DNA from: Olsenella sp. An270
GTDB lineage: Bacteria; Actinomycetota; Coriobacteriia; Coriobacteriales; Atopobiaceae
Assembly (NCBI RefSeq): GCF_002159735.1
Contig: NZ_NFJF01000004.1
Location: 1-64,000, forward strand
Length of the DNA: 64,000 bases
Direction of reading: 5' to 3'
The notes beneath the pieces were generated by a model. It was not told where the DNA came from and did no database searches. It saw only the letters and a program-made list of their open reading frames with translations. Position numbers and translations under genes: made by a program. This document shows, one piece after another, positions 17,566-45,532 of this stretch. Within the stretch, counting starts at the first letter, position 1; every line of letters starts with the position of its first letter.

Positions 17566-18660
17566 TCAGCCGATGCCGTACGCTTCCACGGGGACGACGT
17601 CCCGGACCTCGGCGTCCGCCCGGTCCCGCCCTCGCCCGTGGTCGCCCCAGCGGACGCCGTCGATGCGCTCTAGCTCCAGGTAAAGGCGCAGCCTCAGCCG
17701 CCTGAGCCGCTCGCTCTCCCGGTGGGTGCGTCGCTTTGCCGGGGTGCCGAGGTCGCGCCTGATGAGGTCCACGAGACCGTCCATGTAGGCGAGGTCGCGG
17801 TACTGCCTCCTGGTGACGAGGTACTCCACGATTCCGATGGCGGTGAGCTCGTTATGCCGCTCCGCGTCTCGCGCATGCGCCTCCTCGCTGGCGTGGTCTC
17901 TGCCGTCGTACTCCACCGCCGCGCCGAGCAGCGCCCTCCCGTTGCGCATCGCGTCGGCGGGCGCGCGCAGAAGGATGTCGGGCTTGCGGATGCCGGCGCG
18001 CATCCTGTCGCGGATGCGGGTGACCTCCAGCGGCGCGTTCATCGAGAGCACGTCGAGGCCGTAGCCGCCGCGCGCAGGGTTGAGTCCCAGGCGCAGGGAG
18101 AGCTTGGTCTCTCGCGGGGATCCGGAGTTCACGCAGGCACGTCCCAGGGCGCGTCGCACCTTGGCGGCGCCGGGGAACGAGCCCAGGGCGTCGAGGTGCG
18201 CCAGGACCATGTCGCGCGTGGTGGGCGCGGACCAGCGCTGCCACATGCCGCCCTCGAGCTCCGGCGCGATGGCGTAGGTGCCCATGAGCTCGGAGAGCAG
18301 CACGATGAGCTCGAGCTCCGTGAGGCGCGGCGCCATCTGGACGGCAAGGTGCTCCGGGGAGACGCACCGGACGCCGGGCGCCACGAGAAAGGCGGAGCCG
18401 GCGGGCAGCGGGCGGGACACGGTGTGCGTCTTGACGCGCTTGGACCTCCTGCGCCCCGCCTCGTCGGCGACGAGGGCCTCTATCGGCTGCGCGAGCCGGC
18501 CGAGCAGCGGCGTCTGCGCAATCAGGCTCGCAAGCTCGGCGTCGCTTGGGCCGCGGCCGGGGACGGGCGCGTCGCAGCGCTGGCGCCACTCCAGGCTCAG
18601 GCGCAGCTCTTGTCGGCGGATCACCTCTAGGGCGGTAAGATGAGAAAGCATCAGTTCCAT
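17566..18660 (-). CDS. Orphan gene A: PD-(D/E)XK nuclease-like protein (DUF559-like C-terminus)
   Basis: This 364-residue protein has an N-terminal part of about 180 residues with VAPGVRCVSPEHLAVQMA and LLSELMGTY, reminiscent of AbiEi-like regions. The C-terminal nuclease-like core has GSPRET (Glu, about 190), KPDILL (Asp, about 236), then AVEYDGRDH and a helix with ARDAERHNELTAIG. This is the order seen in DUF559/Vsr-type folds. It is paralogous to genes B (44,354) and C (52,809): all three share the SEL/G-Y segment, a GSP-E motif, a P/C-D pair and a final E-containing strand. It is flanked by direct repeat arrays A1 and A2. Enzyme activity is inferred, not shown. The Lys of a canonical motif is not obvious. 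Confidence 0.6.
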   Translation of the reverse strand: MELMLSHLTALEVIRRQELRLSLEWRQRCDAPVPGRGPSDAELASLIAQTPLLGRLAQPIEALVADEAGRRRSKRVKTHTVSRPLPAGSAFLVAPGVRCVSPEHLAVQMAPRLTELELIVLLSELMGTYAIAPELEGGMWQRWSAPTTRDMVLAHLDALGSFPGAAKVRRALGRACVNSGSPRETKLSLRLGLNPARGGYGLDVLSMNAPLEVTRIRDRMRAGIRKPDILLRAPADAMRNGRALLGAAVEYDGRDHASEEAHARDAERHNELTAIGIVEYLVTRRQYRDLAYMDGLVDLIRRDLGTPAKRRTHRESERLRRLRLRLYLELERIDGVRWGDHGRGRDRADAEVRDVVPVEAYGIG

Positions 18661-18965: not shown

Positions 18966-21900
18966 ATGCTGATCGACCGCGTTTCCCGCCAGTTGACTGC
19001 AGCCCCGGAGCTCGCGCCGCTCGTGCGCGCGCTCGACGCCGGCGAGGACGCCAGCCTGTCCGTGGCCCAGTCCGCACGCCCGCTCGTGCTCGCCGCGCTC
19101 TGGGCGAGAAGCCCGCGCCCCTGCCTGCTCGTCGTCTCCGGCGAGGAGGCCGCGGACCGCACAGCGCGTGCGCTGGCTGCCTGGCTCGGCCAGGACGTCG
19201 TGGGCCGCTACCCTGAGCGCCGCGACCGGCCCTGGGCCGACACCGCCCCCGACGACGCCGTCGTCGGTGCGCGCTGCCGCTCCGTCGCGCGCCTCGCCGC
19301 CGGCGAGAGCTGCGTGATCGTGGCGTCCGCCCACGCGCTCCTGCGACGCGTGCCGCCCGTGGGCTCGGGCTACTTCGCCTCGAGCACCTTTGCGGTGGGC
19401 GACGAGGTCCCCTTTGAGGACGTGCCGGCGCTGCTCGTGGGCATGGGCTACAACGACGCCGGCGACGTGGACGCCCCCGGCACCTTCCATGTGCACGGCG
19501 ACACGGTCGACGTCTTTCCCGCGCAGGCCACGAGCCCGGTGCGCATCGAGTTCTTTGGCGACGAGATCGACCGCGTTCGCCGCATGGTCCCCTCCACGGG
19601 CCAGACGATCGGCGAGCTGACGGAGGTCACGGTCTCGCCCTGCCGCGAGCTCGCGCTCACGGACGAGACGGTCGCCCGCGCCGAGCGCGCCCTCTTCAAG
19701 GCCGCCCAGGACAACACGAAGGTGGCCGCCGACCTGGAGCTCATTCGCCAGCGGGCCGCCGCCCCCGCGCTGGAGCGCTACCTCCCGCAGCTCTACGGCA
19801 CCACGGCGAGCCCGCTCGAGCACGTCGCGCAGAGCGCGCTCGTGGTCCTCGCCGAGCCGCGTGCCCTCTTCGACGACTGCATGCGCGCGTTCGACGAGCT
19901 CACCGCCGCCGCGAACGCCACCCGTGCGAGCCTCGACGGCCTCTACGCCTCCCCGCGCGAGATGGACTTTGGCAGTCAGCAGCGCCTGTCCTTCTCGTCC
20001 ATGCTGCGCGCCGGCGCCGGGACGTCCACGGCGGACCTCGAGGTGCGCCAGCCCGGCATCGCCGGCTCCGACGCCAAGCTCATGGGCCGCGTTCGCCAGC
20101 TCGTGGCCGACCGCTGCGCCGTGCTCTTCGCCGTGCCGGACCGCGGCGCGCGCGAGTCGCTGGAGCTGCGCCTCTCCGACGAGAACATTCCCTTCGTCGA
20201 GTCGCTGGGAACGGCGGCCGAGAACAACGCGCCGCAGGTGGAGCCCTTGGACCGCGGTTGTGTGACCTTCACCGACGCGCCCGTGCCGGCCGGCATCGTG
20301 ATCCCGGGCGCGCATCTGGCCGTGCTGTCGGTCTCCGACCTCGCGTCCCGCACGGCCAAGTCGCGCCGCCGCGCCCGCCGCGTGGACCCCACGAGCGTGA
20401 CCTTCCCGTTCAAGCCCGGCGACTACGTCGTCCACGCCACGCACGGCATCGCCCTCTTCTCCGACATCGTGCGTCAGGAGGTGGCCGGCCGCGAGCGCGA
20501 CTACTTCCTGCTGGAGTATGCCGGCGAGGACAAGCTCTTCGTGCCGCTCGAGCAGGTGGACCGCATCACGCGCTACGTGGGTCCCGACGGCAGCTCGCCG
20601 CGGCTCACGCGCCTCAACACCGCCGACTGGTCCCGCGCCACGGGGCGTGCGCGCCGCTCCGCCAAGAAGCTCGCCTTCGACCTGGTGGACCTCTACACGC
20701 GCCGCAGCTCCGTGCCCGGCTACGCCTTCTCGCAGGACACCCCCGTCCAGGAGGAGATGGAGGCGAGCTTCCCCTACGAGCTCACCGCCGACCAGCGCTC
20801 CTCGATCGCCGACATCAAGGCCGACATGGAGGCGCGCCGTCCCATGGACCGCCTGCTCTGCGGCGACGTGGGCTTTGGCAAGACGGAGGTCGCCCTGCGT
20901 GCGGCGTTCAAGTGCTGCCAGGACGCCAAGCAGGTCATGGTGCTCTGCCCCACCACGATCCTGGCGCAGCAGCACTTCGAGACGTTCTTCTCGCGCTTCT
21001 CGCCCTTTGACCTCAAGGTGGCCGTGCTCTCCCGCTTTGTGACGCCGGCCCGGCAGCGCAAGGCGCTCGAGGGCTTCGCGGACGGCTCGGTGGACGTGCT
21101 CATCGGCACGCACCGGCTGCTCTCGGCCGACGTCAACCCCTATGACCTGGGGCTCGTTATCATCGACGAGGAGCAGCGCTTTGGCGTGCAGCACAAGGAG
21201 CAGCTCAAGAACATGCGCGAGCAGGTGGACGTGCTCACGCTCTCGGCCACGCCCATCCCGCGCACCATGCAGATGGCCATGAGCGGGGTGCGCGACATGA
21301 GCCTCATCATGACGCCGCCGCCCGGCCGCCTGCCGGTCAAGGTGACGGTGGGGGAGTGGGACCCCGACGTGGTGAGCGCGGCGATCCGCGACGAGCTCGC
21401 GCGGCACGGCCAGGTCTACTACGTGTCCAACCGCGTCCACACGATCGACGACGCGGTGGGGCGCGTGCGCGAGGCGGCGCCGGAGGCCCGCATCGGCGTG
21501 GCGCACGGCAAGATGAGCGCCCGCGAGGTCGAGGACGTGATGCTGCAGTTCCAGGAGCACGAGGTCGACGTGCTGGTGGCCACCACGATCATCGAGAGCG
21601 GCATCGACAACCCGCACACCAACACGCTCATCATCGAGGACTCCCAGCGGCTGGGCCTGGCGCAGCTCTACCAGCTCAAGGGTCGCGTGGGCCGCGGGCG
21701 CATGCAGGCCTTTGCCTACTTCATGTTCCCGGCGGAGCAGCCCCTTACGCCCGAGGCCACCGACCGCCTCACGGCGATCAACGAGTACCAGGACCTGGGC
21801 AGCGGCATGAAGATCGCGATGCGCGACCTGGAGATTCGCGGCGCGGGCTCGCTCATGGGCGCCGAGCAGCACGGCAACCTCTCCAGCGTGGGCTTTGACC

Positions 21901-22406
21901 TCTTCACGCAGATGCTCGGCGAGGCCGTGGCCGAGGCGCGCGGCGAGACACGCGACGTGGAGCAGGCCGAGGTCACGATCAACCTGCCGGCTGACTTCTT
22001 CCTGGCCGAGGAGTACCTGCCCGACGTGGACAAGCGCGTGCTCGTGTACCGCCGCCTGGCGGCGGCCGCGGACCTTTCCGAGGTCGATGCGCTGCAGCAG
22101 GAGTGCGAGAAGGACTTTGGCGCGCTGCCGCTCGCCGGGCGCAACCTCTTCGACCGCGCCCGCGTGCGCATCCGCGCGCAGCGCCTGGGGTGCGCAAGCG
22201 TGAGCCTGGCCAACGGGCGCCTGGTCTACCAGGGCGTGGAGGTCTCGCGTCAGACGGCGCTTCGCCTCAAGGAGCGCGGCGGCGTGGTCTACCCCAAGAC
22301 CAAGAAGGTGGCCTATCCGTTCCACCGCACGCAGGAGGAGGTCATGCCGGCCGCGCTCGGCGTCCTCGAGGAGATCGGCGGCGACGACGAGGTCGAGGAG
22401 GAGTAG
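18966..22406 (+). CDS. mfd: Transcription-repair coupling factor
   Basis: This 1,146-residue protein has full Mfd architecture. The UvrB-like N-terminal domains include VFPAQATSPVRIEFFGDEID (about 180-200). The RNA-polymerase-interacting domain begins near 481 (KPGDYVVHATHGIALF). The RecG-like motor has Walker A GDVGFGKTEVALRA (about 634), DEEQRFGV (about 731) and LTLSATPIPRTMQ, and the C-terminal domain ends with an acidic tail. Mfd removes stalled RNA polymerase from lesions and recruits UvrA. It stands alone, preceded by array A2 and followed 12 bases after the stop by GTCCTTCTCGG and the 31-bp array E1. Confidence 0.97.
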   Translation: MLIDRVSRQLTAAPELAPLVRALDAGEDASLSVAQSARPLVLAALWARSPRPCLLVVSGEEAADRTARALAAWLGQDVVGRYPERRDRPWADTAPDDAVVGARCRSVARLAAGESCVIVASAHALLRRVPPVGSGYFASSTFAVGDEVPFEDVPALLVGMGYNDAGDVDAPGTFHVHGDTVDVFPAQATSPVRIEFFGDEIDRVRRMVPSTGQTIGELTEVTVSPCRELALTDETVARAERALFKAAQDNTKVAADLELIRQRAAAPALERYLPQLYGTTASPLEHVAQSALVVLAEPRALFDDCMRAFDELTAAANATRASLDGLYASPREMDFGSQQRLSFSSMLRAGAGTSTADLEVRQPGIAGSDAKLMGRVRQLVADRCAVLFAVPDRGARESLELRLSDENIPFVESLGTAAENNAPQVEPLDRGCVTFTDAPVPAGIVIPGAHLAVLSVSDLASRTAKSRRRARRVDPTSVTFPFKPGDYVVHATHGIALFSDIVRQEVAGRERDYFLLEYAGEDKLFVPLEQVDRITRYVGPDGSSPRLTRLNTADWSRATGRARRSAKKLAFDLVDLYTRRSSVPGYAFSQDTPVQEEMEASFPYELTADQRSSIADIKADMEARRPMDRLLCGDVGFGKTEVALRAAFKCCQDAKQVMVLCPTTILAQQHFETFFSRFSPFDLKVAVLSRFVTPARQRKALEGFADGSVDVLIGTHRLLSADVNPYDLGLVIIDEEQRFGVQHKEQLKNMREQVDVLTLSATPIPRTMQMAMSGVRDMSLIMTPPPGRLPVKVTVGEWDPDVVSAAIRDELARHGQVYYVSNRVHTIDDAVGRVREAAPEARIGVAHGKMSAREVEDVMLQFQEHEVDVLVATTIIESGIDNPHTNTLIIEDSQRLGLAQLYQLKGRVGRGRMQAFAYFMFPAEQPLTPEATDRLTAINEYQDLGSGMKIAMRDLEIRGAGSLMGAEQHGNLSSVGFDLFTQMLGEAVAEARGETRDVEQAEVTINLPADFFLAEEYLPDVDKRVLVYRRLAAAADLSEVDALQQECEKDFGALPLAGRNLFDRARVRIRAQRLGCASVSLANGRLVYQGVEVSRQTALRLKERGGVVYPKTKKVAYPFHRTQEEVMPAALGVLEEIGGDDEVEEE

Positions 22407-22424
22407 CGGCGCCGCGGGTCCTTC

Positions 22425-22740
22425 TCGGAATCGCTGCCCTTGTCGGCGGCGGCCCCAGGAATCTCCGCCCTTGTCGCCCGCCCTTCTAGGAATGTCGGCC
22501 CTTGTCCGCGCCGCGTCTAGGAATCGCCGCCCTTGTCCGCCCTGGGAGGCGCCAGGGCGTACAACCCCTCGATTTTTTAGACGTGCGGCGGACAAGGGCC
22601 GCGTTCTTTAGAAGCCTCCCGGACAAGGGCGGCGATTCCTAGAAGGGCGGGCGACAAGGGCGGCGTTTCTTAGACGCGCCCCGGACAACCCCGGCAATTC
22701 CTGGAGCCGTGGCCGACAAGGGCGGCGTTTCCTAGACGCG
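22425..22740. repeat. Repeat array E1: 31-bp-period inverted tandem array
   Basis: The left half carries CCCTTGTC in direct units whose ends fall at 22444, 22475, 22506 and 22537, exactly 31 bp apart. The right half carries the complementary GACAAGGG (or GACAACCC) starting at 22591, 22622, 22653, 22684 and 22715, again 31 bp apart. Each unit also has a CTAGGAAT or ATTCCTAG block. The centre holds a hairpin, CGCCCTGG/CCAGGGCG (22538-22559). It fills the gap between mfd and the DUF4160 gene. A homologous array lies at 30,122. Confidence 0.93.
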
Positions 22741-22783
22741 TTCGCAATAAACCATGGCAAAAGAAGCAAATTCCCCGCCAGAA

Positions 22784-23098: not shown

Positions 23099-23533
23099 AT
23101 GTTTCATAAGGTCAAGGACGTGACGCCTCTTCCGGAGCTCCGTCTGCGCGTCCAGTTTGCCAACGGAACAACCAAGCTCTATGACGCAACGCCGCTCGCA
23201 GAGCGATTCGATGCCTTTAAAGAGCTCGAGAAGGGTCAACTATTCGAAGACGTCGAGGTCGATGCTGGTGGGTACGGCGTCTCGTGGAACGACGACCTTG
23301 ACCTCTCCTGCGACGAGCTCTGGGAGCATGGCGAGCCGATAAAGACGGAGTTTGACGGCCTGATGTCCTTCGCCGACGCAAGCGCCCTCTGGGGGCTCAG
23401 CGAGTCCACGCTTCGCAAGGCCGTCTCATATGGGAAGATCGTCGCCGGCGTGGATGCCCGGAAGTTTGGCAAACAGTGGGTCGTCACGTCCGAGGCCATG
23501 TACAGGGAATACGGGGAGCCGCTGAGCGCATAG
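23099..23533 (+). CDS. DUF2442 protein with C-terminal helix-turn-helix
   Basis: The protein has 144 residues. The first 80 or so match DUF2442 (VKDVTPLPELRLRVQFANG, then GYGVSWNDDLDLSCDELW). The rest is a small DNA-binding module of excisionase/HTH style (FADASALWGLSESTLRKAV, then KFGKQWVVTSEAMYREYG). It is probably the regulatory partner of the DUF4160 protein and could bind the palindrome at 22784-22799. The ATG at 23099 follows GAGAGGAG. Codon use is less GC-biased than in the housekeeping genes, suggesting transfer. Confidence 0.82.
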   Translation: MFHKVKDVTPLPELRLRVQFANGTTKLYDATPLAERFDAFKELEKGQLFEDVEVDAGGYGVSWNDDLDLSCDELWEHGEPIKTEFDGLMSFADASALWGLSESTLRKAVSYGKIVAGVDARKFGKQWVVTSEAMYREYGEPLSA

Positions 23534-23553
23534 CCGATGGTTGGGCCGCGGCC

Positions 23554-24570
23554 CTACACCCAGCGGAAGCCGTGGCCCGTGATCTGCGACGTGTTGACGT
23601 AGGTCACGAAGGCGTCCGGGTCGATCCCCCGCAGGTACTTCTCGAGCTTGAGGGCCTCCGAGCGCGTGAGCACGGTCATCACGACCGAGAGCTCCCTGCC
23701 CGTGTACGCGCCGTAGCCCAGCCAGACCGTGGCGGTGCGCGCAAGGCGGCGCACCACGAACTCCTGGACGCGTGCGGGCCGGCGGCAGACGACGGTGCAC
23801 ACCTTGTGCTGCTTGAGGTCGTCGAGCACGCCGTTCACGATGACCGTCTCCAGCAGCAGGCCCACGATGCAGTAGACGCCCGTGCGCACCCCGTAGAGCG
23901 CCACGCCCGAGCAGGCGGTCACGGCGTTGACCACGGTGATCGCGTGGCCGGTGGGCAGGCTCGTGTGCCGGGAGAGCGCCATCACGAGGATGTCGGTCCC
24001 GCCCGTGGAGGCGCCGGCGTTGTAGGCGATGCCGGTGCCCGCGGCGACGAGCACCAGCGAGCAGACGAGGTCGATCCAGAGGTCCCCCGTCACGGACCCG
24101 CTCACGGGAACCAACGCCTGGAGCACGCTCACGTAGGCCGAGAGCAGGATCGACGCCACGACGCTCCAGGCCACGGCGCGTCGCTCGACGAAGATCAGGC
24201 CGACCACCACGAGCACCACGTTCACGGCCCAGAGCGCCACGTCGCTCGGCAGGGCGGGGACGAGCGTGGAGATGACGATGGCCATGCCCGACGCACCGCC
24301 GGTGGCGAGGTTGTTGGGGGCCTGGAACAGCACATAGGCCAGCGCGCACAGGATCGCCCCGACGTTCACCGCCACGGCGGTCCGCACCATGCTCGGGCGG
24401 TCGCGACGCAGCAGCAGGCGGTCGCTCATGCGCTCCTCCTCGGGCGTGAGCAGGCGCTCGGCCTGGATGACGGGCGCCCCCTCGTATGCGGGCGAGGCCT
24501 GCTCCGGTCTCACTCCGGCATGAGAGAGCTCCTCCTCGGCGGCGAGCCGCCCAGGGTCGTCGTGACGCAT
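23554..24570 (-). CDS. YitT family membrane protein
   Basis: This 338-residue protein has a soluble acidic N-terminus of about 60 residues, five or six membrane helices (VAVNVGAILCALAYVLFQAP onward) with the family motif AGASTGGTDILVM, and a C-terminal DUF2179 domain of about 90 residues (HKVCTVVCRRPARVQEFV to the end). The transport or regulatory role of this family is not settled. The start is fixed by GGAGG eight bases before the ATG. It lies 22 bases downstream of the GntR-type gene on the same strand and is probably cotranscribed with it. Confidence 0.88.
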   Translation of the reverse strand: MRHDDPGRLAAEEELSHAGVRPEQASPAYEGAPVIQAERLLTPEEERMSDRLLLRRDRPSMVRTAVAVNVGAILCALAYVLFQAPNNLATGGASGMAIVISTLVPALPSDVALWAVNVVLVVVGLIFVERRAVAWSVVASILLSAYVSVLQALVPVSGSVTGDLWIDLVCSLVLVAAGTGIAYNAGASTGGTDILVMALSRHTSLPTGHAITVVNAVTACSGVALYGVRTGVYCIVGLLLETVIVNGVLDDLKQHKVCTVVCRRPARVQEFVVRRLARTATVWLGYGAYTGRELSVVMTVLTRSEALKLEKYLRGIDPDAFVTYVNTSQITGHGFRWV

Positions 24571-24592
24571 GCGTTCCTCCGTTGTTGAAGAC

Positions 24593-25306
24593 CTACGTGG
24601 TGTGGCGGTAGGTGTAGACGCTCCCGTTGTAGTAGGTGTTGATGTACTCGAACGGCACCGAGACACCGTCGATCGTGGTGTAGGTCACGTGCGACGAGCA
24701 GAGCAGGGCAATGTCGTCGGCCTCGAGCAGGCGCTTTTGCTCCTCGGTGGGCAGCAGCGCACGAAGCTCCTGGTCGACGTGCGAGGTGCTGATGCCGAGC
24801 GAGTGGACGTAGTCGTAGAGCGAGCCGTTCAGGCACTCCACGCTGATCGCGGGGATCACGGAGGCGGAGATGTAGGTGTCGCTGATGGCTATGGGCATGT
24901 CGTCGCCGGTGCGAAGGCGCACGAAGTGGTGAATGAGGTCGGTGCCCGAGAGCCCGAGCTTCTCGGCGGCCACCGGCGCGTCGGCCGCGCTGACGACCTC
25001 GTAGGAGATGAGGCGCGCGCCGGCCTTCAGGCCGATGGCGGCCATGTCCTCGGTGAAGCTCGCCCCGCCGGCGAGGCTCTTGTTCACGTGGCGGCGGGTC
25101 ACGAAGCTGCCGCGCCCGGGGACGCGCTCGATGTAGCCGTCGGCGGAGAGGTTGTTGAGGGCCTTGCTCACGGTCATGCGCGAGAAGCCAAACTGCTCGC
25201 AGAGCTCCTCCTCGGTGGGGACCTGGTCTCCCACCTTGAGCGTCCCGTCCTCGATCATCTCGTGGACGGTCTTCTCGACCAACCGGTACTTGGGCTCTCG
25301 CGCCAT
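24593..25306 (-). CDS. GntR family regulator, HutC/UTRA type
   Basis: This 237-residue protein has an N-terminal winged helix at residues 5-75 (DQVPTEEELCEQFGFSRMTVSKALNNL, then PGRGSFV) and a UTRA ligand-binding domain to the end. UTRA regulators usually bind sugar phosphates, for example NagR/DasR. It is divergent from the SIS-PTS operon at 25,581, its likely target. The TGTCTAGACA palindrome at 25355 in the shared gap resembles NagR-type operator cores. The start is chosen at 25306 because GGAGG lies just upstream. Confidence 0.92.
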   Translation of the reverse strand: MAREPKYRLVEKTVHEMIEDGTLKVGDQVPTEEELCEQFGFSRMTVSKALNNLSADGYIERVPGRGSFVTRRHVNKSLAGGASFTEDMAAIGLKAGARLISYEVVSAADAPVAAEKLGLSGTDLIHHFVRLRTGDDMPIAISDTYISASVIPAISVECLNGSLYDYVHSLGISTSHVDQELRALLPTEEQKRLLEADDIALLCSSHVTYTTIDGVSVPFEYINTYYNGSVYTYRHTT

Positions 25307-25354
25307 GACGCCTCCTCCCGTCTCTACCAAGGAGGGTAACAAACTGTTTGTAAT

Positions 25355-25364
25355 TGTCTAGACA
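25355..25364. promoter_or_regulatory. Candidate operator of the HutC-type regulator
   Basis: TGTCTAGACA is a perfect palindrome with the GTCTAGAC core known from NagR/DasR-type sites. A degenerate second copy, TGTCTGTACA, lies at 25449-25458. The 25,307-25,580 gap is AT-rich and must hold both divergent promoters; I cannot place the -35/-10 pairs confidently. Confidence 0.65.
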
Positions 25365-25580
25365 TGAATTATTCCAACGGTCGAAACACGTCGGGTTCCG
25401 GCGGCTCCCGCCAGCGACGTCGCCTCCGGGAGCTGCTGTTTTCAGGTTTGTCTGTACATATGTTCACCTCGCCATCAGCCAGTTACCGACGGATAGATAC
25501 CATTCGGCCCACAATGTCATTACAAAGAGACAATATGTATATACAAAGTTGCTAGGGACAAGCCGACCGAAGGAGCGGAC

Positions 25581-26687
25581 ATGATCACCAAGCTCGAAGA
25601 CCCCAGCATGTACGGCTACATTAAGGACACCGGCCACGCGCTGCGCAACGCCTTCGCGGAGCGCGCGGTGTTCTGCGACCCGTTCGTCGAGCTCATGACG
25701 ACGCACGACTTCAAGCGCGTCTACTTCGTGGGCTCGGGCACGAGCTACAACGCATCGATCTACATCTCCACGCTCATGCAGCGCTACGCGCGCGTCGAGG
25801 CCAGCGCCGGCTTCCCCACGCGCTTCGACGAGAACGACATCGCCACGAGCGGCGCCTACCGTCCCGACCAGGTGCTCGTCGTGGGCGTCTCGCAGTCCGG
25901 CACGAGCGTCTCCACCATCGACGTCATGCGCCGCGCGCACGAGGCCGGCTTCTACGCGCTCGCGCTCACCGACGTCATGGACAGCCCCGTCACCGAGAGC
26001 GTCGACTCCGCCATCCGCCTGCTCACGGGCAAGGAGGAGGTCCACGTGGAGACGCGCGGCTACCAGGTCTCGCTCTTCGAGGGCTACCTGCTCGCCATCG
26101 CGGCCGGCCACGCCCTGGGCACCCTCGACGCCGCCGCCTACGCGCAGAAGCTCGCCGACGCCGAGCGCCTCGCGAACGACTATGACAGCTTCGTCGCTCA
26201 GGCCGACGCCTGGTACGACGCGAACGTCTTCGAGCTCATGGCCATCACGCGCGGCTACGTCTGCACCTACGGCATCAACGCCTGCACCGCCGAGGAGGCC
26301 GAGCTCAAGCTCAACGAGACCTACCACAAGCCGGTGCGCGGCTACGAGCTCGAGGAGATGATCCACGGCCCGCACTACGCGCTCGACGAGAACAACTACT
26401 CCTTCTTCGTCGCGCCGGACGGCCCCGGCATCGAGCGCGTCCCGAGCTTCCTCAAGTGGTACGAGGACAACAAGGTCACCGACCACGTCTTCGTCATCAC
26501 CAACGGCGACCACGCCGGGGAGTTTGGCGAGAAGTCCATCTGCTTCGAGCAGGAGGTCCCCGACGAGCTCACCCCGCTGGTCATGGTGATCCCCCTGCAG
26601 ATCATGGCCTGCCGCAACTGCATCAACGCCAAGATCGACACGCGCTACCGCCCGGCCAACCGCACCTCGTTCGCCCACCTCAACTAG
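25581..26687 (+). CDS. SIS domain sugar-phosphate isomerase/deglycase
   Basis: This 368-residue protein has two SIS domains. The first has VYFVGSGTSYNASIY and GVSQSGTSVSTID (phosphosugar-binding Ser/Thr). The second has CTAEEAELKLNETYHKPVRGYELEE with catalytic-type Glu and His residues. It resembles the isomerase half of GlmS and the FrlB/GfrE/GfrF deglycases, which cleave phosphorylated fructoselysine or glucoselysine. As the first gene of a mannose-type PTS operon it should act on the incoming phosphosugar. Both an Amadori compound and an amino sugar fit. Confidence 0.82.
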   Translation: MITKLEDPSMYGYIKDTGHALRNAFAERAVFCDPFVELMTTHDFKRVYFVGSGTSYNASIYISTLMQRYARVEASAGFPTRFDENDIATSGAYRPDQVLVVGVSQSGTSVSTIDVMRRAHEAGFYALALTDVMDSPVTESVDSAIRLLTGKEEVHVETRGYQVSLFEGYLLAIAAGHALGTLDAAAYAQKLADAERLANDYDSFVAQADAWYDANVFELMAITRGYVCTYGINACTAEEAELKLNETYHKPVRGYELEEMIHGPHYALDENNYSFFVAPDGPGIERVPSFLKWYEDNKVTDHVFVITNGDHAGEFGEKSICFEQEVPDELTPLVMVIPLQIMACRNCINAKIDTRYRPANRTSFAHLN

Positions 26688-26696
26688 GAGCGCGCC

Positions 26697-27134
26697 ATGA
26701 GCCAGGTTCTTATCGCCACGCACTCCACGCTCGCCGAGGGCTTTGCCAGCGCGATCCGCTTCTTCAAGGCGGACGCCGACAACGTCCACTTCCTCAACGG
26801 CTACGTGGCGACGACCGAGTTCGAGCGCGAGCTGCGAGAGGCGCTCGAGGCGCTGCCCGCGGGCGGCCCCGTCGTCGTGTGCACCGACATCCCCGGCGGC
26901 TCCGTCAACCAGGTGGCGATGAGGCTGGCGGGCGAGTACGGATTCCTGCTGGTGAGCGGCATCAACATGCCGCTGCTCCTCGAGCTCGCGTTCGAGGATG
27001 ACCCCACGTACGAGACGCTCGCGCAGACGGTGGCGAGCGCACGCGCCCAGCTCATGCTCCCCCTCGCGGACATCCCCGCTCCCGAGGAGCCGAGCGCCGA
27101 GGAGGAGGGAGACGAGGACGAGGAGGAGCTCTAG
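26697..27134 (+). CDS. PTS system mannose/sorbose-family EIIA component
   Basis: The protein has 145 residues. The phosphorylated His is His9 in VLIATHSTLAEG. CTDIPGGSVNQVAMRL (about 61-76) is the conserved dimer-interface segment. The last 20 residues are an unusual acidic tail of Glu and Asp that is not part of the EIIA fold. It accepts phosphate from HPr and passes it to the EIIB encoded next. It starts 9 bases after the SIS gene. Confidence 0.93.
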   Translation: MSQVLIATHSTLAEGFASAIRFFKADADNVHFLNGYVATTEFERELREALEALPAGGPVVVCTDIPGGSVNQVAMRLAGEYGFLLVSGINMPLLLELAFEDDPTYETLAQTVASARAQLMLPLADIPAPEEPSAEEEGDEDEEEL

Positions 27135-27187
27135 CCAAGAGGCTCGCCGCGGGCGAGCAGCCGAGAAGAACAGGGAAGGGAGTAGAC

Positions 27188-27691
27188 ATGATCGTGCTCA
27201 CCAGGGCAGACGACCGCCTCATCCACGGACTCGTAGCCGTTGCCTGGACGTCGCACCTCGCGCCGGAGACCATTCTGGTGGCCAATGACGCCGCGGCGGC
27301 CGACGAGTTCAAGAAGAACTCGCTCAAGCTGGCCAAGCCCGCCGGTGTGAAGCTGTTCGTGAAGTCCGTCGAGAAGGCGGCGGCCGCGCTCAACAACCCC
27401 GTCAACGACAACAAGAAGATCTTCCTGGTCACGCAGACGGTGGAGGACGCCAAGCGGGTCTATGACCTGCTGGACGACGCGCACAAGTTCACGCGCCTCA
27501 ACATCGGCACCGCCGGCGTGAACAAGAAGCCCGGCGAGACCTACGTGGCCATCATCCCGCAGGTCTACACCACCGCCGAGGAGCTCGAGGCTGCGCGCGC
27601 CCTGAACGCCGCCGGCGTCACGGTCTTCGGCCAGGCCAACCCCACGCTCGAGAGCGCCGACTTCGCGGCCATCGAGCGGGCCTTCAAGTAG
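27188..27691 (+). CDS. PTS system mannose/sorbose-family EIIB component
   Basis: The protein has 167 residues. ADDRLIHGLVAVAW near the N-terminus contains the phosphorylated His13, and the fold continues with ILVANDAAAADEFKK and NIGTAGVNKK. It transfers phosphate from EIIA to the sugar in the EIIC/EIID channel. The gap before it (27,135-27,187) contains CCGAGAAGAAC at 27161, the recurrent pre-start motif. The start follows GGGAAGGGAG. Confidence 0.94.
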   Translation: MIVLTRADDRLIHGLVAVAWTSHLAPETILVANDAAAADEFKKNSLKLAKPAGVKLFVKSVEKAAAALNNPVNDNKKIFLVTQTVEDAKRVYDLLDDAHKFTRLNIGTAGVNKKPGETYVAIIPQVYTTAEELEAARALNAAGVTVFGQANPTLESADFAAIERAFK

Positions 27692-27751
27692 GAACGGAGC
27701 GGGCGCGTCGTCCGGCGCGCCCGCCGCAAGTCAGCAAGAGAGAGGAACGAC

Positions 27752-28546
27752 ATGCTGCAAGGATTCTTGGTCGCCCTCGTGGCGTCGCTGATCTACCTCG
27801 AGTCCCGTCTCGGTGGTCAGCACATGCTCGACCGCCCGATCATCATCGGCCCGATCGTGGGCCTCATCATGGGCGACCCGATGAAGGGCCTCGTGATCGG
27901 CGGCGAGCTCGAGCTCGTGTGGATGGGCCTCAACGGCATCGGCACCACCACCCCGCCCAACGTCGTCGTGGGCTCCGCGCTCGCGACCGCGCTCGCCATC
28001 AGCACCGGCGCGTCCTACGAGACCACGCTCGCCCTCGCGGTGCCCATCGCCGTCGTCGCCCAGATCTGCGACATCGCGGCGCCGATCGTGAACACCTTCT
28101 TCGCCCACCAGGCCGACCGCCTCGCCGACAAGGAGAAGTACGACCTCATCGACTGGTGCGTCTGGGGCGGCGGCATCGTGTACTTCCTGTTCAAGTTCGT
28201 GCCCATCTTCCTGGGCTTCGTTCTTGGCTCCGGCGTCATCACCGCCTTCGTGGACCAGATCCCCGACGTCATCCAGAACGGCCTCAACCAGTCCGGCAAC
28301 ATCCTGCCCGCCCTCGGCGTGGCCATGCTGATCCAGCTCACCTGGGACAAGAAGTTCGGCGTGTTCCTGTTCCTCGGCTTCGCGCTCGCCGCGTTCCTCG
28401 GCGTGAGCACCCTCGGCGCCGCATTCTTCGGAGCCATCGCGGCCGTCGTCTACTACATGCTGAGCGGCAACAAGGCCTCCGGGTCCGTCCTTGCCGCCAC
28501 GTCCGGTGAGACCGTCGTCGACGATGACGACAGTGAGGAGCTCTAA
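27752..28546 (+). CDS. PTS system mannose/sorbose-family EIIC component
   Basis: This 264-residue polytopic membrane protein has the family motifs HMLDRPIIIGPIVGLIMGD and GGELELVWMGLNGIGTTTPP near the N-terminus and several further helices. It forms the sugar channel with EIID. The soluble C-terminal end is short and acidic. The stop is 2 bases from the EIID start, indicating tight coupling. AGAGAGGAA precedes the ATG. Confidence 0.95.
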   Translation: MLQGFLVALVASLIYLESRLGGQHMLDRPIIIGPIVGLIMGDPMKGLVIGGELELVWMGLNGIGTTTPPNVVVGSALATALAISTGASYETTLALAVPIAVVAQICDIAAPIVNTFFAHQADRLADKEKYDLIDWCVWGGGIVYFLFKFVPIFLGFVLGSGVITAFVDQIPDVIQNGLNQSGNILPALGVAMLIQLTWDKKFGVFLFLGFALAAFLGVSTLGAAFFGAIAAVVYYMLSGNKASGSVLAATSGETVVDDDDSEEL

Positions 28547-28548
28547 TC

Positions 28549-29364
28549 ATGGCAGAAGAGAAGAAGATCAGCGCCAAGACCCTCCGCCGCGTCTTCTGGC
28601 GTCACTACCAGCTGCTCGGCTGCTTCAACTACGAGCGGCAGATGTCCACGGGCTACGGCTACACGATGATGCCCGCCCTGAAGGAGCTCTACAAGGACGA
28701 CCCGAAGGCCATGCAGGAGGCCGTGAAGCGTCACCTCGAGTTCTTCAACTGCGCGACGTCCACCTCCCCGTTCATCATCGGCCTGACCTGCGCGATGGAG
28801 GAGCAGAACGCCTCCGAGCCCGGAAGCTACGACACCAGCTCCATCACCTCGGTCAAGGCGGCGCTCATGGGCCCGCTCGCCGGCATCGGCGACTCGTTCT
28901 TCTGGGGCACCTTCCGCGTCATCGGCGCCGGCATCGGCGCGCCGCTCGCCGTGGCGGGCAACGTCCTCGGCCCGATCATCTACGCGATCCTCAACGTGAT
29001 CCCGTCCGAGATCGTGCGTCGCTGGGGCTTCAAGATCGGCTACAGCGGCGGCTCCAAGTTCCTCGAGCGCATCTCGAGCGACGGCACGCTCCAGAAGGTC
29101 ACCGAGGCCGCGCGCATCATGGGCCTCATGGTCATCGGCGCCATGATTCCCTCGATGGTCCTGCTCACGCTCAACGCCACGGTCGACATCAACGGAGCCA
29201 CGGTCGTGCTCCAGGAGGTCCTCGACCAGATCTGCCCGTACATCCTCCCGCTCGGCCTCGTCGGCGGCTGCTACAAGCTGCTCAAGAGCGGACGCTCGGG
29301 CACGATGGTCATGTTCGGCCTGCTCATCCTGGGCATCGTCCTCGCCGCCCTCGGGCTCGTGTAG
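28549..29364 (+). CDS. PTS system mannose/sorbose-family EIID component
   Basis: This 271-residue protein has a soluble N-terminal half with TLRRVFWRHYQLLGCFNYERQMSTGY and HLEFFNCATSTSPFIIG, then ALMGPLAGIGDSFFWGTFR before the membrane helices. It completes the EIIC/EIID permease. The length and motifs are typical. A GC hairpin without a T run (29389-29425) separates it from the HAD gene. Confidence 0.95.
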   Translation: MAEEKKISAKTLRRVFWRHYQLLGCFNYERQMSTGYGYTMMPALKELYKDDPKAMQEAVKRHLEFFNCATSTSPFIIGLTCAMEEQNASEPGSYDTSSITSVKAALMGPLAGIGDSFFWGTFRVIGAGIGAPLAVAGNVLGPIIYAILNVIPSEIVRRWGFKIGYSGGSKFLERISSDGTLQKVTEAARIMGLMVIGAMIPSMVLLTLNATVDINGATVVLQEVLDQICPYILPLGLVGGCYKLLKSGRSGTMVMFGLLILGIVLAALGLV

Positions 29365-29388
29365 GACCCTGCGCAACGTCCCTCTCTC

Positions 29389-29425
29389 GCGCCGCCGCGC
29401 CCGCCCCCCGCGGCCGCGGCGGCGC
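29389..29425 (+). terminator. Hairpin between EIID and the HAD gene
   Basis: GCGCCGCCGCG (29389-29399) pairs exactly with CGCGGCGGCGC (29415-29425). No T tract follows. It may attenuate transcription or protect the upstream PTS mRNA. Confidence 0.55.
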
Positions 29426-29448
29426 GTCGTCTCACGGAAGGAGTGGAA

Positions 29449-30102
29449 GTGGTCAAGGCGGCGCTGTTCGACATGGACGGGGTGCTTGCGTTCACCGAGC
29501 GCTACTACAACCGGCGTCGCGTCGAGTACCTGCGCGGCCAGGGGTTCGAGCTGGGCGACGTCGACGACTGGACCGGCGTCCACGACGACGAGTCCTGGGA
29601 GCGCTGCGTCCCCGGCGACGCCGCGCTGCGGGAGCGCCTGCGCGCCGGGTACAACCGCTTCGCCGACGAGCACCCTACGCCCTGGGGCGAGCTGGGCAAC
29701 AGGCGTGCGCACGCCACGTTCGTCGCCCTGCGCGGCCGGGGCGTGAGGATCGCCATCTGCTCGTCGTCGCCGCGCTTCCTCATCGAGGAGTGCATGGAGG
29801 CGCTCGACCTCGGCGACCTCACGGACTACGTGATCAGCGGCGACGAGTGCGTCGCCCACAAGCCCGACCCAGAGATCTACCTGCGCGCCATGCGACACCT
29901 GCGCGTGTCTCCCGAGGAGTCCGTCGTGGTCGAGGACTCGCCGACCGGCATCCGCGCCGGCAAGGCGGCGGGCGCGCTCGTGTGCGCGCTGCGCCAGCCG
30001 GACGGGGTTCTTCTCGACCAGCGCGAGGCGGACCTCGTGATGGACGACCTCTTCGAGCTGGTCGACCTGGTCGGAGAGCGGCGAGTCGCCTCGCTGGCGT
30101 AG
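29449..30102 (+). CDS. HAD hydrolase, beta-phosphoglucomutase-like
   Basis: This 217-residue protein begins VVKAALFDMDGVLAFTE (motif I, nucleophile Asp). Motif II is IAICSSSPRFLIEE, and motifs III/IV are HKPDPEIYLRAM and VVVEDSPTGIRAGKAAG. It fits the cap-containing phosphatase/phosphoglucomutase group. Being last in the PTS operon, it probably dephosphorylates or rearranges a sugar phosphate made there. GTG at 29443 is also in frame, but GGAAGGAG is better spaced for the GTG at 29449. Confidence 0.85.
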   Translation: MVKAALFDMDGVLAFTERYYNRRRVEYLRGQGFELGDVDDWTGVHDDESWERCVPGDAALRERLRAGYNRFADEHPTPWGELGNRRAHATFVALRGRGVRIAICSSSPRFLIEECMEALDLGDLTDYVISGDECVAHKPDPEIYLRAMRHLRVSPEESVVVEDSPTGIRAGKAAGALVCALRQPDGVLLDQREADLVMDDLFELVDLVGERRVASLA

Positions 30103-30121
30103 ATGCGGCGGCGCGTCCTTC

Positions 30122-30407
30122 TCGGAATCGCCGCCCTTGTCGTCTGCGGCCCCAGGAATCGCCGCCCTTGTCGCCTGCCCCTCTAGGAAAGCCGGCCCTT
30201 GTCCGCGCTGCGTCTAGGAATGCGAGGGGTTGTACGGCTTCGCAGCCTCCGTGGCGGACAAGGGCCGCATTCTCTAGAAGCCTCCCGGACAAGGGCGGCG
30301 TTTTTTAGACTCGCCCCGGACAAGGGCGGCGATTTCTAGATGCGGCCAGGACAAGGGCCGCAAATCCTAGACGCGCTCCGGACAACCCCGTCGATTCCGG
30401 GACGGGG
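30122..30407. repeat. Repeat array E2: 31-bp-period inverted tandem array
   Basis: This array has the same family and layout as the one at 22,425. Left-half units end at 30141, 30172, 30203 and, degenerate, 30234. Right-half GACAAGGG or GACAACCC units start at 30257, 30288, 30319, 30350 and 30381. All steps are exactly 31 bp. Sequence between matching blocks varies more than the blocks themselves. It fills the gap between the PTS operon and mazG; no gene is visible inside. Confidence 0.93.
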
Positions 30408-30432
30408 AGGCGCCCGCGAACCGTCCGAGCGG

Positions 30433-30474: not shown

Positions 30475-31326
30475 ATGTCGCAAGCAGCCGATCGCGTGGA
30501 CGCCGAGACCGCCGCCCGTCCCGGCGCGCCGACCACGCACCCGGAGTTCGACCGCCTCGTGCGCACAATGTGGCGCCTGCGCCAGCCGGACGGCTGCCCC
30601 TGGGACCGCGAGCAGACGCACCGCTCGATCACCAAGCACATGGTCGAGGAGGCCTACGAGGCCGTGGAGGCCATCGAGGCGGATGACCGCGCCCACCTCG
30701 TGGAGGAGCTCGGCGACGTCCTGGAGCAGGTGGTCCTGCACGCGCAGATCGCCGCCGACGAGGGCGCCTTCACGATCGACGACGTGGTCCGCGGCCTGAA
30801 CGAGAAGCTCGTGCGCCGCCACCCGCACGTCTTTGGCGCGCACGCGGCCGCCGGGGACGGCGGCGAGGTCCAGGACATCTGGGATGACGTCAAGGCCGCG
30901 GAGCGCGCCGCCTCGGGCGAGAAGGACGCGCCGCAGGGCCTCCTCGACTCCGTCCCGCGCAGCCTGCCCGCCCTCATGCAGGCGCAGAAGATCTCCAAGC
31001 GCGCCGCCAAGGCAGGCTTCGAGTGGGAGACCGTCGCCGACGTCTGGGACAAGGTCGCCGAGGAGCGCGCCGAGTTCGAGCGCGAGGCACCCGGCTCCGA
31101 CGCCCGCGTCCTCGAGTTTGGCGACCTGCTCTTCGCGCTGGTCAACGTCGCGCGGCGCGAGGGGATCGACGCCGAGGAGGCGCTCGCCGCCTCCAACCGC
31201 AAGTTCAGGACCCGCTGGTCCCGGATGGAGGACCTGGCTCGGGCCGAGGGCGAGCCGCTCGACGAGCTGGACACCGTCCGGCTGAACGAGCTCTGGGACC
31301 GTGCGAAGGCGGAGGAGAATCGCTGA
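30475..31326 (+). CDS. mazG: Nucleoside triphosphate pyrophosphohydrolase MazG
   Basis: This 283-residue protein has two MazG helical domains. The first (about 30-125) has LRQPDGCPWDREQTHRSI, then EEAYEAVEAIE and EELGDVLEQVVLHA, the EExxE...ExxD metal-binding set. The second (about 165-265) repeats the fold with EFGDLLFALVNVAR. It hydrolyses NTPs to NMP plus pyrophosphate as housecleaning. AAAGGAG precedes the ATG. The length is slightly above the 260-270 residues typical of full-length MazG because of N-terminal residues. Confidence 0.95.
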   Translation: MSQAADRVDAETAARPGAPTTHPEFDRLVRTMWRLRQPDGCPWDREQTHRSITKHMVEEAYEAVEAIEADDRAHLVEELGDVLEQVVLHAQIAADEGAFTIDDVVRGLNEKLVRRHPHVFGAHAAAGDGGEVQDIWDDVKAAERAASGEKDAPQGLLDSVPRSLPALMQAQKISKRAAKAGFEWETVADVWDKVAEERAEFEREAPGSDARVLEFGDLLFALVNVARREGIDAEEALAASNRKFRTRWSRMEDLARAEGEPLDELDTVRLNELWDRAKAEENR

Positions 31327-44353: not shown

Positions 44354-45532
44354 TCACGCGAGCGGCAGCGTCGCCCAGTCGGCAAAGAGCTCCTCGCGCA
44401 GGCGCATCGCGGCATCCGTCTCGCTCGATGTCCGCCTGCGATAGGGAACGCCCAGCTTCTCGGCTATCAGCTGCGAGAGCGCATCAAAGCGCGCGAGGGA
44501 CGTCAGCTGGCCGTAGGTGACGTTCACCACGTCAACGCCCACGAGGTCGAGCGCCGTCGCGCGGTCCGCGTCGGATAGGGCGGCATCATCGAAGGCGTGC
44601 GCCAATCGGCTCTGGCACTCCACGTCGAGGGCGCGCCGCCCCTCGACGGCGTCCCAGTAGATGTCGCAGACGAGAAACGCGCGCCGCGCGAGGCTTCTCG
44701 CCCCTTGCGTGAGGGGGACGCGCTGGTTGTGTCGGAAGGCGCCGTAGCCCTCCCCGCCGAGCCGGCGTGAGAGCCCCAGGAGCATGCCGGCCCTCACCTC
44801 AAACGGCGACGCCGCACCGGCGACGACGAGCTCGGCCGCGCGCAGCAGCCGGGTCCGTCCGCGCGCCGTCAACGAGCAACGCGCGAACTCCTCGAGCTGC
44901 TCGGGTGTCGAGAGCGGCGGCCGTGACCAGAGCTCCGTGAGATGTCCATCGCGGTCAAGGGTGGGTGACCAGCCCGAGATGCGGGGAAGACGCCCCTCGT
45001 CTATGAGCCGCTGGAGCAGGGCGCGCACGGGCTCGGGCGCGACGTAGACCGAGAAGGACCCGCAGAGCTCGGAGGCCAGCATCACGACGCGGGGCAGCGA
45101 TGCCCGCGCCGCGATCTGCTGGAGCGAGAAGAGCGGCGAGACGGCTGTGACGCCCGGCGCGACGCTGCGCCAGCCTCCCGGCTCGGCCGGCGTCGAGCAG
45201 AGGCGTGGCCGTACGAGTGCGGACGCGCTCCGCTCGGATGGGTGACAGACCAGAAGGTCGACGGGCGGCTCGAGGGCGACCGAGAGCGCCCTCGCAGAGG
45301 CCGCGACCGCGCCAGCTCTTATGCCGGGATGTGCGCGGCCGCCGTCGGCCCGACTCGCGAGGACGCAGAGCGGCGAGGATGCGGCGAGCTCTTGCCGGAA
45401 CGCGCGGACCTCGGAGGGGGAGAGAAGCTCGCGCAGGAGCGGGCTGTCCTCGGGCTTGGACGCGAGCAGGCGGACGAGGGGCGGCGTCCTCCAGTAGAGG
45501 AACGCGGACGTGTCGCAGATGGTGGCTTCCAT
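44354..45532 (-). CDS. Orphan gene B: paralog of genes A and C, nuclease-like fold
   Basis: This 392-residue protein shares with gene A the segments SVAPGVTAVSPLFSLQQIAA (A: LVAPGVRCVSPEHLAVQMA), MLASELCGSFSVY (A: LLSELMGTYAI) and GAASPFEVRAGMLLGL (A: SGSPRETKLSLRLGL). It also shares GEGYGAFRHNQRVPLTQ and LVCDIYWD (A: KPDILL), then LDVECQSRLAH (A: AVEYDGRDH). The putative catalytic Glu, Asp and Glu are kept, although the DG after the last Glu is not. The N-terminal 90 residues are unrelated to A. It is flanked by repeat set B on both sides. Function unknown; activity may be lost or altered relative to A and C. Confidence 0.6.
   Translation of the reverse strand: MEATICDTSAFLYWRTPPLVRLLASKPEDSPLLRELLSPSEVRAFRQELAASSPLCVLASRADGGRAHPGIRAGAVAASARALSVALEPPVDLLVCHPSERSASALVRPRLCSTPAEPGGWRSVAPGVTAVSPLFSLQQIAARASLPRVVMLASELCGSFSVYVAPEPVRALLQRLIDEGRLPRISGWSPTLDRDGHLTELWSRPPLSTPEQLEEFARCSLTARGRTRLLRAAELVVAGAASPFEVRAGMLLGLSRRLGGEGYGAFRHNQRVPLTQGARSLARRAFLVCDIYWDAVEGRRALDVECQSRLAHAFDDAALSDADRATALDLVGVDVVNVTYGQLTSLARFDALSQLIAEKLGVPYRRRTSSETDAAMRLREELFADWATLPLA

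Follow-up and report, generated by a model that had tools for sequence, protein, structure and literature searches.

Inverted arrays of 31-bp units at gene 3′ ends in the genome of Olsenella sp. An270

Introduction

Directly behind mfd in the genome of Olsenella sp. An270 lies a gene-free stretch of short units that repeat at a fixed step and reverse direction around a common centre, raising the question of what these units are, what holds their period constant and whether the locus stands alone. We addressed this question in the window (the whole stretch of DNA that was analysed, 64,000 nucleotides, positions 1–64,000 of contig NZ_NFJF01000004.1), across the genome and in its relatives.

Results

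Two arrays of one design

The first array, E1, comprises ten units at 31-bp steps, four on the left and six on the right, inverted around a 22-bp centre and totalling 332 bp (22414–22745). A preliminary description of the window had the step right and counted nine units (4 + 5), having missed the weak innermost right unit (22560, TACAACCCC...; 18.8 bits with the unit matrix, which was trained on E1, E2 and the remaining arrays of the genome). E2 is a twin of E1 with 4 + 5 units at 31-bp steps (30111–30411) and an identical centre length (22 bp), and the gene caller placed no gene inside either array; the shared design and the lack of an internal gene had both been recognised in that description. 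The arrays and their neighbours are as follows.

18966–22406, plus strand: mfd (transcription-repair coupling factor; Pfam TRCF, CarD_TRCF_RID and UvrB_inter), with 8 bp from its stop codon to the start of E1
22414–22537, minus strand: E1 left arm, reading outward; unit starts 22414, 22445, 22476 and 22507; unit matrix 29–38 bits each
22538–22559, no strand: E1 centre, 22 bp separating the innermost units; a hairpin fold is possible in E1
22560–22745, plus strand: E1 right arm; unit starts 22560, 22591, 22622, 22653, 22684 and 22715; unit matrix 19–40 bits
22832–23533, plus strand: two small genes 3′ of E1, the first without a Pfam match (we take it to resemble DUF4160), the second (23099–23533) with DUF2442 and HTH by Pfam
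29449–30102, plus strand: HAD-family hydrolase (Pfam Hydrolase/HAD_2 on 29443–30102), with 9 bp from its stop codon to the start of E2
30111–30234, minus strand: E2 left arm; unit starts 30111, 30142, 30173 and 30204; innermost unit weak (unit matrix)
30235–30256, no strand: E2 centre, 22 bp
30257–30411, plus strand: E2 right arm; unit starts 30257, 30288, 30319, 30350 and 30381; outermost unit weak (unit matrix)
30475–31326, plus strand: MazG-type pyrophosphohydrolase downstream of E2 (start from the ORF list; gene caller start 30496)

Scanning the window with the unit matrix returned 19 units above 11 bits, all within E1 and E2, whereas each of 20 first-order Markov sequences of window length contained none or one. 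The motif GACAAGGGCGGCG, with at most two mismatches, occurs 37 times in the window against 6.34 expected.

A second, shorter motif, GCGAGAAGRAC / GTYCTTCTCGC, is found 15 times in the window (0.12 expected), with 8 of the 15 sites between genes. Its sequence is similar to the inner half of the array unit, and inspection by eye also shows it in many junction stretches from other species.

5386, 17382, 18896, 30444, 34152, 36236, 52426 and 54079: GCGAGAAGRAC / GTYCTTCTCGC sites in the window, which recur at many other loci

The window further encodes three members of a nuclease-like paralog family, and the preliminary description had proposed looking for another copy beside an array. One such copy does lie between two arrays (L033), as does its orthologue in a second species (L139), but none of the three copies in the window adjoins an array. 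The family has no NCBIfam match and, in two paralogs, only sub-cutoff Pfam matches; one paralog has a weak REase_MTES_1575 match, and a possible nuclease motif can be seen by eye.

17566–18624, 44354–45082 and 52809–53921: nuclease-like paralogs in the window
L033 2513–3601, minus strand: nuclease-like paralog between two arrays
L139 516–1553, plus strand: its orthologue

A genome-wide family with a fixed step

The 2.01-Mb genome contains approximately 44 arrays with 335 units (unit matrix; 43 arrays before two further stretches were added), and BLAST with E1 as query gave 110 matches in it. An exact-unit scan of named genomes matched two, both Olsenella (6 stretches). The unit consensus (333 units) is GACAAGGGCGGCGATTCCTAGA (~22 bp, two turns) together with nine nearly free bases. 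Two units at exactly 31 bp were matched 188 times as a pattern in this genome, with no match for the reversed control. Pairs of GACAAGGGC with any distance of 19–49 bp allowed, a check proposed in the preliminary description, fell at 31 bp in 67 of the 70 cases listed (two at 30 bp, one at 25 bp; reversed control 0), and a recount on fetched stretches gave 78 at 31 bp, 2 at 30 bp and 1 at 28 bp; the genome-wide preference for 31 bp passed this check.

Of 248 steps within arms in this genome, 240 equal 31 bp, the other eight being 29, 30, 32, 41, 61, 61, 62 and 63 bp; in four relatives the count is 186 of 189 (exceptions 61, 62 and 62 bp). Linkers of adjacent units have a likeness of 0.378 (n = 219) against 0.332 for independent draws; since the step is constant although neighbouring linkers are barely more alike than chance, it is the length of the linker that is kept, while its sequence is nearly random. 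The centre, measured start to start, is 53 bp for 31 of the 43 arrays of this genome and for 16 of the 33 found in relatives, and 84 bp, corresponding to one weak unit more, in eight arrays here and eight in relatives. Values 1 bp from these were confined to relatives (52 bp, two arrays; 83 and 85 bp, three arrays), and rarer centres measured 114 and 115 bp (one each), 42, 43 and 74 bp here, and 64, 103 and 105 bp in relatives.

Eight offsets, which take in centres as well as one 41-bp and one 29-bp step, miss the 31-bp register by more than 1 bp (−11, −10, −2, 10, 11, 21, 50 and 52). Six of them lie within 1 bp of whole helical turns and 50 lies 2 bp off, while −2 says little. With seven of eight off-register spacings on or near whole turns, and spacings of 41 or 52 bp in sister species, the earlier suggestion that a bound protein would sit on one helix face is supported. 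A Rayleigh test on 20 deviations at 10.33 bp gave p ~4e-7, a value inflated by the 12 deviations within 1 bp of register, which count trivially. Where arrays abut, their outermost units are 38, 39, 39, 59, 59 and 6 bp apart, representing more than one phase.

Units also differ by place within the array. Among innermost units (n = 73), 48% have a T as base 1, against 2% of middle units (n = 146), and about half of the innermost inverted units are extended to TTGTACGGC-N14-GCCGTACAA; the outer bases of the 22-bp centre (C1 89%, G22 89%) likewise extend the inverted innermost sites. In outermost compared with middle units, C19 rises to 37% from 14% and G20 to 55% from 25% (CCGG for CTAG).

Gene distances, arm covariation, centre composition and array similarity were computed on a set of 38 arrays, leaving out L040, L047 and L055 (two-armed, with odd centres) and the one-sided arrays, all of which were counted in the spacing census; arms in this set end early at off-register steps in L034, L042, the second array of L052, L062 and L064.

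Arrays follow stop codons

With genes called by a purpose-built codon-usage caller (the right neighbour of E1 being set by hand), 27 of 46 stop codons lie within 25 bp of an array, as against none of 28 start codons, the nearest of which is 55 bp away. Gaps with arrays are convergent in 10 cases, tandem in 25, divergent in 1 and at contig ends in 2, compared with 5 convergent, 23 tandem and 14 divergent among array-free gaps of at least 150 bp, so that divergent gene pairs account for 1 of 36 arrays versus 14 of 42 array-free gaps. Of the gene ends next to arrays, 0 of 26 showed a terminator-like hairpin (a hairpin with a T run behind it), as did 6 of 74 other gene ends; these numbers are too small for a comparison, and the simple detector used yields few hits anywhere.

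Six contig ends fall at fixed places in the array unit, three breaking at TTYCT then GATATGAGAGAG and three at TCTAGA then CGATATGAGGGG. These breaks are probably due to insertion sequences, present in several copies, for which the unit serves as a target; REP sequences are described as an insertion target for IS elements (PMC1525189). The small contigs in which such elements might reside read as N.

L038 98, L046 2667, L054 2469; L108 2921, L111 2900, L112 92: contig ends inside array units

Distribution among relatives

The 31-bp type occurs in five of the 31 genus genomes, this genome being followed in tandem matches by G107 (134), G113 (116), G086 (73) and G091 (7). The 109 other genomes of the family gave two single matches, close to the level of the reversed pattern (three single matches in 140 genomes). 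Of 18 array regions retrieved from relatives, 12 border a gene end whose orthologous counterpart in this genome also borders an array (G107 6/8, G113 3/6, G086 3/4; the tally counts immediate array neighbours only). Some of these arrays have linkers in common (L039 and L124, 7.5 of 9), and others, such as L044 and L132, do not.

At single junctions the type is patchy. The mfd 3′ end carries it in 2 of 17 relatives (G107 and G091), and the murG/murC and plsX junctions carry 31-bp units in 3 of 40 stretches, all from G086, G113 or G107, the murG/murC junction of G107 showing no more than an apparently decayed remnant; G087 and G098 have no unit at the mfd, murG/murC or plsX junction. As arrays are missing from close relatives, their function cannot be essential. 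A tree of 17 relatives and this genome built from the mfd 3′ end has good support for only 5 of its 15 inner branches; on it, the 4 array-bearing rows require four changes, no fewer than under shuffled labels (3.7).

G091 has two arrays only, and these flank a PTS segment (L122 10384–17187) that is 97% identical to window positions 23544–30377, whereas its matches neighbouring the segment are 73–85% identical. This difference points to transfer of the PTS segment with its array DNA, that is, to a recent transfer or exchange with the congener G091 of the PTS operon segment at the mfd–mazG junction.

Re-spelled arrays in sister species

Arrays in sister species keep an outward core, GCGATYYYTAR, with a different inner half and a spacing of 41 bp, sometimes 52 bp; the polarity, with TAR outward, is common to the four sister species listed below. 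Two copies of this core 25–55 bp apart were found in 8 of 140 family genomes, and among 51 matches listed (five more belong to G099) 15 pairs were at 31 bp, 35 at 41 bp and 1 at 32 bp. Compared with the core-to-core centre of 53 bp in this genome (core-to-core distances were derived by hand from unit positions), the sister species show the following.

G099: unit CCGGANGGGNCGCGATCNTTAAGC; 47 of the 50 steps measure 41 bp; six of the seven arrays have a core-to-core centre of 64 bp, the seventh one of 53 bp
G090: 41 bp in 21 of 26 steps, the others 52, 52, 40, 42 and 17 bp; core-to-core centre 43 bp in 6 of 6
G106: 41 bp in 6 of 6 steps; core-to-core centre 63 bp (one array)
G085: 41 bp in 3 of 4 steps; core-to-core centre 74 bp (one array)

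Within the family, spacings therefore shift mostly by whole helical turns, with exceptions. In other families of the class, the core recurs at 32, 33 or 34 bp in three of the genomes searched, and G367, outside the family, has steps of 30 and 32 bp and a centre of 36 bp, so the whole-turn rule is not universal.

Several other species have different inverted arrays at matching junctions, where Tandem Repeats Finder reported periods of 21, 61 and 62 bp, as well as 14, 26, 27 and 35 bp and short two-copy repeats. The mfd/mazG junction holds different repeat elements in other species (L146, L147, L158, L160, L155, L159, L150 and L149), among them REPIN-like-looking palindromes, a 41-bp palindromic ACTCATTTCCGGAAATGAGT array and an element with CTGACTTTTGCACGAGCGC-like ends, and the murG/murC junction of five species (L169, L173, L180, L187 and L177) holds 61- to 62-bp tandem arrays, near six helical turns. 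The palindromic or 61-bp repeat types may bind other proteins.

Discussion

Readings of the arrays

The arrays are real, recur throughout the genome under strong constraint and do not fit any of the named families that we tested. E1 is probably one of some 44 operator arrays at 3′ gene boundaries for a putative cooperative, sequence-specific DNA-binding protein bound on one helix face; we infer the protein, its cooperativity and the order of its binding.

The main rival is a selfish, multi-site transposase-driven origin, in which a transposase recognising multiple phased sites at each end would spread a REP/MITE-like, non-autonomous extragenic element with no gain to the host. Dozens of copies with a patchy distribution among close species would be expected of such an element, as would a location 3′ of stop codons, where insertions of neutral or selfish DNA are tolerated, and the presence of other repeat types at matching junctions of other species; phased multi-site ends are, moreover, typical of some transposases. 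Against this, recent copies are missing among the 38 arrays, the best pair being 82% identical over 182 bp (median best 76%), and no target duplication was seen, the longest direct match between flanks averaging 4.92 against 5.07 ± 0.15 for mixed flanks. One of 38 arrays has flanks sharing a direct match of 8 or more; array edges are blurred, and a short duplication could escape. The set thus lacks the near-identical recent copies of a MITE or mini-transposon, and its target-site duplication was not seen. Y1_Tnp, the RAYT domain, has 0 matches in this genome while 28 of 31 genus genomes are positive, which does not fit a RAYT association, and Mu-transpos_C matched 0 of 31 genomes in a search that had no positive control. 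Arrays are also retained at orthologous gene ends, some with matching linkers. The absence of recent copies, target duplications and RAYT weakens this origin, and we consider it distinctly unlikely, though a serious contender.

A phage or plasmid origin was dropped: plasmids and phages had no array match, and viral contigs gave 0 matches to the degenerate unit and 15 single matches to a looser two-unit pattern, with no unit of at least 14 bits there.

Transcribed arrays could instead act as RNA elements, with an extended, imperfect hairpin serving in transcription termination or in the protection or processing of mRNA 3′ ends. Arrays do lie directly 3′ of stop codons, and E1 and E2 fold far beyond their shuffles (z −13.3 and −6.1), but inverted arms fold trivially, as inverted arrays must. 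Left and right units of the same index reach a likeness of 0.566 (n = 124), which does not exceed that of other left–right pairs of the array (0.568, n = 404) or of other arrays (0.567). Mutual information in 219 tandem pairs peaks at neighbouring bases (GGG/CCC at 6–8, TA/CG at 19–20), and the 30 strongest pairs are at most 13 bases apart except 15–39 and 48–61, in which pairing bases show no clear excess (0.81 vs 0.78 and 0.42 vs 0.37). As covariation between arm units and the units they would pair with is lacking, the hairpin is not the conserved feature, and the covariation test led us to reject it as the conserved function. The central hairpin of the preliminary description is present in E1 and fails as a family feature, the 22-bp centres of the 38 arrays being no more self-complementary than centres mixed between arrays (4.61 vs 4.40 ± 0.23 pairs of 11). 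Linkers would become 9-nt loops with no reason for a fixed length, helical-turn spacing has no obvious meaning in RNA, and Rfam at its gathering threshold found five tRNAs in the window and nothing at the arrays, all of which makes an RNA element highly improbable.

Neutral tandem duplication, with slippage or unequal exchange multiplying units whose period is merely inherited, can be recognised locally (left units 2 and 4 of L036, 62-bp blocks of L045); as a general account it is barely credible against linkers that are nearly randomised in sequence and seldom altered in length, core positions that remain constrained, centres mostly fixed in length and not in sequence, and larger deviations that fall mostly on whole turns.

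That the arrays encode guide RNAs in the manner of CRISPR or TIGR, the 9-bp linkers acting as spacers, has a probability close to nil: TIGR arrays, as passages in PMC12045711 describe them, likewise carry 9-nt variable spacers between short repeats, but their two alternating repeats and Nop protein contrast with a single repeat, arms inverted around a centre, ~44 arrays in one genome and no match to the Nop domain (PF01798) here, where 4 of 14 control genomes were positive, and TIGR-Tas was rejected on the single repeat, the inverted arms and the lack of a Nop match. CRISPR arrays, with one-way direct repeats, unique spacers and cas genes, differ from the inverted arms and 9-bp gaps seen here, and no cas-type domain was present in 19 translated frames around E1 and E2 (some overlapping or spurious), in agreement with the earlier statement that E1 is not a CRISPR.

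A putative protein filament at gene ends

Under the operator-array reading, the putative protein would contact two adjacent turns per ~22-bp site, the next 9 bp counting almost solely by their length. It may first occupy the two innermost inverted units as a central seed, from which growth would proceed outward, a protomer or a dimer being added for every 31 bp, equal to three helical turns, such that copies share one helix face and touch their neighbours. Free linker sequence, fixed linker length and changes of 10–11 bp would all follow from such an outward, same-face filament. Lying directly 3′ of a stop codon, the filament might form a boundary at the gene 3′ end, by blocking RNA polymerase, by blocking the passage of supercoils or by anchoring the nucleoid; this boundary function is suggested by the place of the arrays directly after stop codons and is, taken on its own, a guess that is rather unlikely to be right.

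More broadly, and tentatively, since we would sooner doubt this wider picture than rely on it, the arrays could belong to a fast-evolving boundary system, in which a protein family of the Olsenella group recognises a two-part site (GCGATYYYTAR being kept and the other half re-spelled per species), filaments are one-sided, spacings of 31, 41 and 52 bp and centres of 43, 53, 64 and 74 bp change essentially by whole turns, and arrays are lost or re-typed at shared junctions. If true, the group would offer a natural experiment on how DNA-bound protein chains alter their spacing, which has shifted among three, four and five helical turns and has rarely taken intermediate values, and would be a bacterial group that marks gene ends by protein arrays with a fast-turnover recognition code. 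E1, at 332 bp, is a ready bait toward the putative binding protein.

Comparison with known systems

A search of the open-access literature found no description of such arrays. Of the known systems, REP/BIME sequences, as described in PMC2817692 and PMC1525189, have many extragenic copies, species-specific versions, composite arrays in two orientations and a proposed role as protein-binding sites; extragenic location, copy number, species-specific versions and the use of both orientations are common to the arrays studied here. Our arrays differ in occurring in a genome without a Y1_Tnp match and in a unit, GACAAGGGCGGCGATTCCTAGA, that is not self-complementary, whereas the REP unit is a palindrome of 20–40 bp, and they have two arms with a 31-bp period in place of alternation.

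The ends of Tn7/Mu/IS21-type transposons carry phased protein sites of ~22 bp at both ends, mutually inverted, and thus share phased ~22-bp sites in inverted sets; the arrays have no element body, no target duplication was found and their sites read outward from a centre. Iterons and phased operator arrays, as at plasmid origins and ParB/ParR-type centromeres, consist of tandem ~20-bp sites with whole-turn spacing and cooperative binding. The tandem sites and their spacing are as in E1, and the differences are that a Pfam scan of neighbouring frames showed no initiator or partition gene beside E1 or E2, and that ~44 copies are spread over the chromosome, at the 3′ ends of genes, with arms inverted about a fixed centre. 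Pneumococcal BOX elements are extragenic, modular and variable in how many inner units they contain, as are the arrays described here, which are set apart from BOX by inverted arms, helical-turn spacing and a shared core with halves re-spelled between species.
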